The position numbers and the translations under genes were made by a program. The notes under the pieces are model-generated. The model saw only the letters and a list, made by a program, of their open reading frames with translations. It was not told the origin of the DNA and made no database searches. Positions 29,759-59,990 of a stretch of DNA of 64,000 bases are shown here, piece by piece. Each line of letters starts with the position of its first letter. The stretch's first letter is position 1. Source of the stretch: Chromatiaceae bacterium (GTDB taxonomy: Bacteria > Pseudomonadota > Gammaproteobacteria > Chromatiales > Chromatiaceae); the NCBI GenBank assembly GCA_019356535.1, contig CP037918.1, forward strand, positions 1,830,315-1,894,314, in the 5' to 3' direction.

Positions 29759-29773
29759 GAACAAATATAGAAC
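29759..29773 (-). promoter_or_regulatory. LexA-like box (GTTC-N7-GTTC) at the dnaE2 promoter
   Basis: On the minus strand the sequence is GTTCTATATTTGTTC, a direct repeat GTTC-N7-GTTC followed by TCCAT. A TATATT hexamer inside it could be the -10 element, with TTGCTC 18 bp upstream as -35, so a bound repressor would block the promoter. The flanked 20-mer is identical to the one before imuA. Confidence 0.72.
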
Positions 29774-44061: not shown

Positions 44062-44295
44062 ATGGCCACAGATGAACGTCGCGTGCGCCTGTTCCGCAAC
44101 GGTCGCAACCAGGCCCTGCGCATTCCTCGCGAATTCGAACTCGAAGGAGACGAGGCAATCATCCGCAAGGAAGGTGACCGCCTGATCGTGGAACCCGTCC
44201 GCAAGGGCCGACTGCTGGCCACCCTCGCCCCCCTCGAAGAACCCTTCCCCGACATCGACGAAGACCTGCCGCCCCTCGACGACGTGACCTTGTGA
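44062..44295 (+). CDS. vapB: VapB-type antitoxin
   Basis: The 77-residue protein has an AbrB-like SpoVT DNA-binding start (RVRLFRNGRNQALRIPREFELEGDEAIIRKEGDRLIVEP) and an acidic C-terminal tail (about 60-77) that would bind the toxin. It fits type II VapB antitoxins, which also repress their own operon. ATG 44062 has AGG eight bases upstream; ATG 44041 in the same frame is an alternative. The VapC reading frame begins inside its last codons. Confidence 0.85.
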   Translation: MATDERRVRLFRNGRNQALRIPREFELEGDEAIIRKEGDRLIVEPVRKGRLLATLAPLEEPFPDIDEDLPPLDDVTL

Positions 44296-44714
44296 ACTGA
44301 TCACCCGCCTGGCTGCTGGACACCAATATCCTTTCCGACCTGATCCGCCACCCGCAGGGCGTTATCGCCGAACGAATCGCCGGGGTCGGAGAAGACGCTG
44401 TCTGCACCAGCATCGTCGTCGCTGCCGAGCTTCGCTATGGCGCTGTCAAATCCGGATCGACGAAACTTTCCGAGCGCGTCGAACTGCTGCTCTCTGCCCT
44501 GGAAATCCTGCCGCTCGAACCACCCGCCGACCGGGAGTACGCCAGGCTGCGCCACCACCTGGACCGACAAGGCACGCCGATCGGCCCCAATGACCTGCTG
44601 ATCGCCGCCCAGGCCTTGGCAACGGACCTGACAGTCGTTACCGCGAATACCCGGGAATTCACGCGCGTTCCGGGCCTGAAGACGGAAAACTGGCTCGAAG
44701 AACCACCGGTTTGA
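44292..44714 (+). pseudogene. vapC: VapC-type PIN toxin with an early stop codon
   Basis: From about 44301 the frame encodes a full PIN-domain ribonuclease (WLLDTNILSDLIRHPQG ... VVAAELRYG ... PIGPNDLLIAAQALATDL). The acidic residues D (LLDTN), E (AAELR) and D (PNDLL) are all present, and the end (stop 44712-44714) is normal. However, the natural start, GTG 44292 overlapping the vapB stop, is followed two codons later by TGA (44298-44300). No ATG, GTG or TTG start exists after that stop before the active-site aspartate; only CTG codons at 44313 and 44316. The toxin is therefore probably dead, or uses a rare CTG start, or the base call is wrong. Confidence 0.7.
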
Positions 44715-44810: not shown

Positions 44811-44882
44811 TAGTAACGACCAAGCTGTGCGGCGCAAACGAAGCGCAGCGTAGTTTGCGTCCGAACGAGCGCATTGTTAGCC
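44811..44882 (-). repeat. attC-like recombination site of the integron cassette
   Basis: Read on the minus strand, a 72-bp imperfect palindrome begins with GGCTAAC (44882-44876, R''-like) and ends with GTTACTA (44817-44811, R'-like). Inner arms CGCAAAC/GTTTGCG pair around a 13-nt loop. The stop codon of the GIY-YIG gene is the TAA inside GGCTAAC, as in many gene cassettes. The outer motifs are not perfect to the RYYYAAC/GTTRRRY consensus. Confidence 0.68.
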
Positions 44883-45505
44883 ACGCTGTATATTCCAAGG
44901 TGGATTATATGCATGAATAAGCTCCCTTTCTAATGACTCAATCGCCACCTCAGACTCCATCTCGTGCAACCATAAGGTAACTTCATTTTTTTCTGCGGTG
45001 ATTCTTGCATTCAGATGACAGTTAGTAGCTTGGCCATCTAAATAACAATTTTTGGGGTGAATTTTTCCGTAACCCTGGTTTACTCGTTTTTTCATCGAAT
45101 CTTTGCAGCGACCAATGTATTTCAGTTCATCGCCCGCAATATATGCATATACACCCTTACTTTCCAAGTAAGCCGTATCTGCGATTTTAAAGATTGAATA
45201 AGTAAGATCCCCGTATTTATTGAGAAATCGCTTATAGAAACTATCCCCAGAATTTTTTAGGTCTTTCAGAAACTCACCCAGCGGCTTCTCAAGAGAATTA
45301 GAATACCTCTCTATAACTTCCTCTTTAAATTTCGCGTAACACCTATGCTCTAGCGTCTGCGCGACAGTTTTGTTGTTTTTATGGATAAATATATCCCGAT
45401 ACGAACTTCCTTCGAACACTAGGGCGACCCGAAAGAACTCGTATTCGTTCTCTCTATCTCCACAGCTTAACTTCATGCTTCAACGGTCATATTCAAGTGG
45501 CTAAC
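44817..45505 (-). mobile_element. Single integron gene cassette
   Basis: The cassette runs from the crossover triplet of GTTAGCC (minus strand, 45505-45499) to that of GTTACTA (44817-44811), about 690 bp, with one gene and its attC-like site. Low GC content against a high-GC chromosome and the adjacent intI remnant support this reading. Next to it on the left is ordinary chromosomal DNA, so only one cassette remains. Confidence 0.7.
44877..45476 (-). CDS. GIY-YIG nuclease-like protein, integron cassette gene
   Basis: The 199-residue protein has a C-terminal GIY-YIG-like domain from about 105: GVYAYIAGDELKYIGRCKDSMKKRVNQGYG, with a glutamate-bearing helix near SLERELIHAYNPPWN, the usual final element of the fold. 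The N-terminal half is of unknown type. The gene is clearly lower in GC than its neighbours. It reads away from the broken intI, starts 23 bp after the GTTAGCC crossover site and ends inside an attC-like site, the normal layout of a gene cassette. A role in DNA cleavage is likely from the fold; the target is unknown. Confidence 0.78.
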   Translation of the reverse strand: MKLSCGDRENEYEFFRVALVFEGSSYRDIFIHKNNKTVAQTLEHRCYAKFKEEVIERYSNSLEKPLGEFLKDLKNSGDSFYKRFLNKYGDLTYSIFKIADTAYLESKGVYAYIAGDELKYIGRCKDSMKKRVNQGYGKIHPKNCYLDGQATNCHLNARITAEKNEVTLWLHEMESEVAIESLERELIHAYNPPWNIQRG

Positions 45506-45563
45506 AGGTGATTATGTGGCTGGCACGAATATCGTGATATGTGGCTGGCGCCAATATTGCGAT
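45499..45563. repeat. attI-like site: crossover core plus two tandem 25-bp repeats
   Basis: The core GTTAGCC (minus strand) lies at 45505-45499. Next to it, two directly adjacent 25-bp repeats (45514-45538 and 45539-45563, ATGTGGCTGGC...GAT) match at 21 of 25 positions. The class 1 attI site also has a core with nearby direct repeats bound by IntI, so the layout fits. The sequence itself is not that of attI1. Confidence 0.55.
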
Positions 45564-45590
45564 ATGCGACCATTTGTTCTATACTTGTTC
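45557..45590 (+). promoter_or_regulatory. intI promoter with overlapping LexA-like box
   Basis: TTGCGA (45557-45562), a 17-bp spacer and TATACT (45580-45585) form a good sigma-70 promoter facing intI. The box GTTCTATACTTGTTC (45576-45590), a GTTC-N7-GTTC repeat, covers the -10. Together with TCCAT it differs by one base from the boxes before imuA and dnaE2. SOS control of integron integrases is well known. Confidence 0.72.
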
Positions 45591-45622
45591 TCCATCGATC
45601 CGACACACACGGAGGTTTGCCC

Positions 45623-46352
45623 ATGTCCGACCAAGCATCTGCCCCGGAAGGCCCTCGCGTAGCACGCTTCTGGCGCGCCTATCTCGAGACACTGCGCTTG
45701 TTCCGTGTTCCCGAGCGCGCCTGCCCCTAGTATCGACGCTATGTGGAGGCGTTCATGCAGGCCCATCCGGGTGTTCGCCTGCGTGAGCATACGACGGAGA
45801 CGGTCATCCACTGGCTGGAGGCGCAGGGGCGCAATCCGCTGGTGCCCGATTGGCAACTTCGTCAGCAGGCCGATGCCTTGCGTTTGCTGTTTGCCCATCA
45901 CCTGCGCCTGGAATGGGCCAAGACGTTCGATTGGAATGGGTGGATGCAGGGCAGCAAAGGGCTGGAGGCTAACCACCCTACCTTGGCGCGGTCGAGCGAC
46001 ATGATCGAGAAGGCGGTGGCTGCGACGGACAATTCGCTGGGTGCACGCTTTCCGGCGCTGTACCGCCGTTTTCTGACCCTGGTGCGGTCGCGCGGGTATT
46101 CGGTGAACACCGAGAAGGCCTATCTCGGCTGGATAAACCGTTACCTGTTGTTCCATAAGGACAAGGATCCCTTTGTCGGCACCGAACAGGCGGTAGGTTC
46201 CTTTTTAGAATATCTGGCACTGAAACGCAAAGTAGCCAGCACCACCCAAGCGCAGGCATTGAATGCGCTGGTGTTCCTGTTCGCGCAGGTGCTGAAGAAA
46301 CCACTGGGCGACATCGGCCCCTTTCTCCGAGCCAACCGACCGCGGCACCTAA
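45623..46352 (+). pseudogene. Integron-type tyrosine recombinase IntI, broken
   Basis: The frame starts at ATG 45623 (MSDQASAPEG), meets an amber TAG at 45728-45730 and continues in the same frame to about 46350. Residues after about 130 match the integrase SAM-like domain (YSVNTEKAYLGWINRYLLFHK ... TTQAQALNALVFLFAQVLKKPLGDI ... ANRPRHL), close to the pattern of integron integrases. A roughly 130-residue N-terminal extension precedes it. The catalytic C-terminal domain (R...HxxR...Y) is missing: the similarity stops just before the radical SAM gene. It cannot be an active enzyme. Confidence 0.8.
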
Positions 46353-46401
46353 TGGCGGTTGTCGGGCTGAAGCCCGTAGGCCTCGATGAGCATTCGGGGC
46401 G

Positions 46402-59975: not shown

Positions 59976-59990
59976 GAACAAATATAGAAC
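59976..59990 (-). promoter_or_regulatory. LexA-like box (GTTC-N7-GTTC) at the imuA promoter
   Basis: Minus-strand GTTCTATATTTGTTC, followed by TCCAT. The 20-mer is identical to that before dnaE2 and one base different from that before intI. A TATATT hexamer inside it may be the -10. Confidence 0.72.

Follow-up and report, generated by a model that had tools for sequence, protein, structure and literature searches.

We found that the window, as we call the whole 64,000-nucleotide stretch of Chromatiaceae DNA analyzed here, almost certainly harbors a decayed chromosomal integron that has kept a single cassette, coding for a GIY-YIG nuclease. A one-cassette integron remnant is, as such, an ordinary arrangement. 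What sets this locus apart is the family of its nuclease and especially the type of its integrase and the putative operator in front of the integrase gene, an operator type not reported before for intI or integrons.

Read along the minus strand, the locus comprises the start region of intI, attI, a GTTAGCC core, an open reading frame (ORF) of 199 amino acids, the heptamer GGCTAAC and a palindrome extending to 44811. The GTTAGCC core (45505-45499, minus strand) is the junction between attI and the cassette. From the TT of this core to the G of R', the cassette spans 44817 to 45504 (minus strand), and its 688 bp correspond to cuts at the two G/TT positions. The nuclease gene (44877 to 45476, minus strand) has its ATG at 45476, 22 bases past the core, and its stop codon TAA (44879-44877) sits within GGCTAAC (44882-44876), which is the R'' box of the 72-bp terminal attC (44811 to 44882, minus strand); the R' box, GTTACTA (44817-44811), is partly made of flanking sequence. 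The ORF has a GC content of 40%, against 60-70% in its surroundings, and it lies opposite to an intI gene on the plus strand that is interrupted by a TAG codon. The sequence-only reading of this region had described a low-GC gene opposite to a broken intI, starting shortly after GTTAGCC and ending with its stop codon inside a 72-bp attC-like palindrome, and had taken the whole for an integron remnant with one GIY-YIG cassette; the elements were confirmed, and the interpretation is supported by the complementary cores, the attI breakpoint and an attC held in common with other integrons.

The two cores that delimit the cassette are exact complements at seven of seven positions. When the cassette is closed into a circle, its attC adopts the canonical attC hairpin fold, with the bottom strand (-19.3 kcal/mol) more stable than the top strand (-15.8 kcal/mol). 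Folding of the linear window site is no more stable than that of its shuffled versions (z -0.23). In a covariance model trained on class 1 attCs and attCs of the family, from which the window site and its near-identical copies had been left out, it scored 8.7 bits (E 0.14 in 1 kb), a low value due to an R' that is partly flanking sequence. In a related integron (L029), this attC has both its boxes intact and reached 29 bits (E 5e-4 in 233 kb). Thus, the significant attC hit asked for by the earlier reading was obtained for the copy in the relative, and the window site ranked first in its kilobase and at the right ends, but its own score is weak. The model also detected attC arrays elsewhere in the genome. 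A strict search for RYYYAAC...GTTRRRY missed the window site because its R'' is GGCTAAC and its R' is degenerate, and an Rfam scan for the attC family found nothing relevant, returning only tRNAs for the whole 64-kb window.

The same elements also occur in relatives. The 67-bp core of the attC is 92-97% identical at three loci (L034, L031 and L029) in two other genomes of the family. In an array of one of them (G018), the attC ends another gene, is bounded by GTTAGGC and GTTAGCC and lies beside an uninterrupted intI frame. At the orthologous site of the sister species (G005), the flanks are about 94% identical and the same terminal attC and flank are found, but with two unrelated cassettes, one coding for a RiboL-PSP HEPN protein and the other including a 76-amino-acid ORF that has no Pfam match. 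The terminal cassette of G005 starts with GTTATGC and ends with GCATAA, and is again self-complementary. On the attI side, the sequence from 45499 to 45575 (minus strand) belongs to a stretch that, when the upstream regions of eight related intI genes are aligned, stays conserved as far as the junction GTT and diverges beyond it, which looks like attI followed by different first cassettes.

That the palindrome is a chance or terminator hairpin, and the low-GC gene an ordinary horizontal acquisition beside a dead recombinase gene, would agree with the shuffle-like folding and low score of the linear site, but this is scarcely credible and is refuted by the shared attC and shared attI breakpoint: the same element ends different genes within GTTRRRY boundaries at other integron loci, the cores match exactly, eight integrons break at one point and the sister species has other cassettes at the same site.

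That the two sister species differ in the cassettes they carry at this site is indirect evidence, read from the sequences, that recombination at attI and attC took place here. With the terminal attC retained and the cassettes entirely different, the locus offers a clean natural record of cassette exchange. We also considered whether the GIY-YIG cassette was the only one ever held at this site, which is unlikely given the two others in G005. A second integron of G005 carries the same attC as well; the nearly identical copies at 6171-6237 of L031 and 6233-6302 of L034 belong to two different integron loci of this genome, which may be a sign of exchange between integrons within one genome.

The integrase gene (45623 to 46357, plus strand) is a pseudogene of a long type. 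The in-frame TAG (45728-45730) is codon 36, and the whole catalytic domain is missing, so that no intact, catalytically competent integrase exists at the window locus. Its surviving part scored 79 bits against TIGR02249 (integron integrase), below the curated cut-off of 265, as the gene is not full length; intact relatives score 443-453 bits. The fragment is 58% identical to an intact 460-amino-acid relative over residues 5-266 of the latter. The earlier claim of a broken intI was well founded. Intact relatives (L025, L027, L028, L032 and L056) are about 446-463 amino acids long and have an N-terminal extension, a SAM-like domain, which matches Phage_int_SAM_4 a second time, above the cut-off in L028 (7e-7) and more weakly, below the cut-off, in L027 (1.3e-4), L025 (0.003) and L056 (0.009).

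Using the 460-amino-acid relative as query, we found four integron-type places in the genome, all of them broken by nonsense codons, a frameshift or truncation. The same search turned up two uninterrupted tyrosine recombinase genes, probably those of XerC and XerD. With every integron-type copy broken, the cassette is stuck in place unless the cell acquires an integrase from elsewhere. A further integron in this genome (L023, G000:C1 at about 1186-1191.5 kb) has several attC sites, a cassette with an Mrr-type restriction endonuclease and an intI split by an apparent frameshift. Three attC-model matches occur at G000:C1 904455-906397 (L077), a CALIN-like stretch without an intact intI nearby. 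A vapBC-like pair adjoins the window integron (44062-44714), in which the vapC frame lacks an ATG, GTG or TTG start beyond the stop codon of vapB; the sister species retains just the 3' portion of vapC, next to a different small set of genes. Our literature search found no paper linking integrons and Thiodictyon.

Upstream of intI we found a promoter-like site, TTGCGA-17-TATACT (45557 to 45585, plus strand), and over its -10 element lies GTTCTATACTTGTTC (45576 to 45590, plus strand), a putative SOS operator of LexA type. The same motif precedes the error-prone polymerase gene dnaE2 (29759 to 29773, minus strand) and imuA, which is followed by an imuB-like gene (59976 to 59990, minus strand). 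Further copies of the extended motif are located at 1036330, 1187375 and 1483108 of G000:C1. In the entire 2.75-Mb genome, GTTCTAYNNTNGTTC occurs exactly six times, before three intI genes, lexA, imuA and dnaE2, and the reversed pattern used as control does not occur at all. As the pattern was derived after the intI, imuA, dnaE2 and lexA sites had been seen, the agreement at all six sites is not entirely independent evidence. For the looser GTTC-N7-GTTC, known as the LexA motif of alphaproteobacteria, the window has five matches against 1.05 expected; this motif is perfect before lexA, imuA and dnaE2, and recA has the near variant GTTC-N7-GTTT. In relatives, the motif was again found before imuA, dnaE2 and intI genes, together with some unrelated matches, and the box is absent or degraded in the related integrons L029, L056, L033 and L034. 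No perfect match to the E. coli-type LexA box, CTGT-N8-ACAG, was found in the window, where only perfect matches were scored.

These motif positions suggest that intI, while alive, was probably repressed by LexA bound at GTTC-N7-GTTC over its -10, a repression that DNA damage would have released. More generally, we consider it fairly likely that the locus belongs to a lineage of chromosomal integrons whose integrase has two tandem SAM-like domains and whose SOS control operates through this operator. A survey of 1,103 intI promoters reported E. coli-like LexA boxes only (PMC3108266). If GTTC-N7-GTTC is indeed a LexA operator, integrases are under SOS control through more than one kind of LexA motif, which that survey did not find, and DNA damage would be linked to the shuffling of cassettes by a second route in addition to the E. 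coli-type box.

On the basis of profiles and of its predicted structure, the cassette protein is a nuclease of the GIY-YIG fold. The domain occupies residues from about 107 to 197, and an extra N-terminal domain residues 1-104. In a single-protein Pfam search, PF01541 (GIY-YIG) scored 14.8 bits (E 0.037), below the gathering threshold of 22.6, and this profile was matched by seven of 16 family members at E up to 0.1 (best 7e-5). Phrog_1111, an endonuclease family, was matched by all 16, and a PDB profile search retrieved T4 endonuclease II (EndoII) at E 1e-5. Moreover, the AlphaFold model (pLDDT 94.3) was matched by Foldseek with probability 0.99-1.00 to T4 EndoII (2WSH) and UvrC nuclease domains, with E-values from 2.5e-3, the best, to 1e-2; Hpy188I was also among the best matches. 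Only the catalytic domain aligns to T4 EndoII. All residues of the GIY-YIG motif (G-V-Y, Y-I-G, R, E, N) are present in the window protein, and Y110, G122, R131 and N195 are invariant across the 16 members; R123 and E183 were lost in two members from Bacillales (L052 and L053). Hence the nuclease identity proposed earlier is borne out by the family-level profile and the fold, not by Pfam alone.

The gene has a very patchy distribution. Of the 38 genomes searched as relatives one has it, and the other 37, among them the sister species that shares this site, lack it; in a class sample it was found in three of 369, two of these matches being weak and partial. Such a pattern does not fit a gene kept at fixed loci in relatives without integron features, the finding that would have spoken against the earlier reading. 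The family consists of scattered solitary genes in genomes and MAGs labeled as Cellvibrionales, Thermodesulfovibrionia, Campylobacterales, Bacteroidota, Patescibacteria and Firmicutes, and two phage-like contigs from a viral collection (L040 and L041) hold homologues. Plasmid and phage records contain distant GIY-YIG relatives only, those of plasmids with at most 38% identity. A homologue 60% identical to the window protein, in a Thermodesulfovibrionia MAG (L043), has its ATG 13 bases past a GTTAGCC; behind the gene come an inverted repeat, long but degenerate (fold z -1.9 and -2.4), and, 1.7 kb further on, an attC-model match (23.3 bits, E 0.004). The core, the inverted repeat and the match suggest that members of the family have probably moved as cassettes in at least two phyla. 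The whole stretch (3798-6170 of L043) resembles an array, with several small genes between the homologue and the attC-model match. The earlier reading had asked for the protein in other cassette arrays, and this distant relative is the one found in such a setting. Two other candidates were rejected. The Cellvibrionales homologue (L042, 68% identical) ends in GGCTAAC owing to shared coding sequence and has no attC after it, and the inverted repeat downstream of the L046 homologue is not recognized by the attC model. The description of a GIY-YIG cassette as unusual was overstated, as one had already been reported in an Aeromonas integron (PMC10609294).

Taken in sequence, the history of the locus was most likely as follows. 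The long-type IntI inserted circular cassettes at attI, joining the GTT of the attI core to the folded attC of each cassette, until a nonsense mutation and the loss of the catalytic half of IntI froze the last remaining one, with its solitary nuclease combining an EndoII-like catalytic domain and an extra N-terminal domain. The cassette may be expressed, and the nuclease may cut incoming DNA, either of phages or of other mobile elements. We put forward this role against foreign DNA tentatively. It is suggested by the solitary, mobile and patchy occurrence of the gene and by the HEPN and Mrr cassettes in integrons of the lineage; against it, no PADLOC defence family or model matches the cassette protein, and neither an evident methyltransferase nor any other recurring partner could be recognized by eye next to the gene or its relatives.

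The strongest competitor is a passenger gene without present function in the host, simply undecayed so far. The dead integrase, the absence of the gene from 37 relatives and a consensus scan that found no promoter reading into the cassette all agree with this explanation, which we nevertheless regard as somewhat unlikely: the ORF and all the motif residues are intact whereas intI is far decayed, although this is weak counterevidence because decay needs time. A selfish, homing-type element spreading through the integron without serving the host is improbable. GIY-YIG domains are common in homing enzymes, and homologues occur in phage-like contigs and scattered phyla, but neither an intron or intein nor a duplicated target at the flanks was seen, the nearest structural matches are to EndoII and UvrC rather than to I-TevI-like enzymes, and a free-standing cassette moves by IntI and not by its own cut. 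Equally doubtful is a nuclease kept for DNA repair or recombination of the host, similar to UvrC or Cho, since the resemblance of the catalytic domain to UvrC as well as to EndoII has to be weighed against the patchy distribution, the mobile contexts of the gene and an N-terminal domain for which the UvrC matches show no counterpart. The nuclease family, which combines a compact EndoII-like domain with the extra domain at its N-terminus, counts as a candidate single-gene defence cassette.

Among known systems, the locus is most similar to the sedentary chromosomal integrons (TIGR02249), with which it shares the attI core, the R''/L''/L'/R' layout of attC, the stop codon in R'', a divergent intI and a site that is occupied by other cassettes in a sister species; it differs from them in its single cassette and dead intI. 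IntI1 has about 337 amino acids, whereas the long type has an additional N-terminal SAM-like domain. As to the nuclease, T4 endonuclease II (denA, phrog_1111, PDB 2WSH) is alike in the GIY-YIG domain, the Y-YIG-R-E-N motif and the C-terminal NPPWNIQ, but its family is made up of single-domain proteins of about 140 amino acids from T4-like phages, where the 199-amino-acid window protein has no place. The family described here has about 100 extra residues at the N-terminus and comes from cellular genomes and cassettes rather than from a set of phage genes for the degradation of host DNA. The orf6 of a class-4-like integron of Aeromonas (PMC10609294) is likewise described as a GIY-YIG cassette. 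Finally, SOS-controlled intI genes (PMC3108266) likewise have a LexA-type box overlapping the -10 of the intI promoter, but the putative box of the window is GTTC-N7-GTTC instead of the E. coli type.
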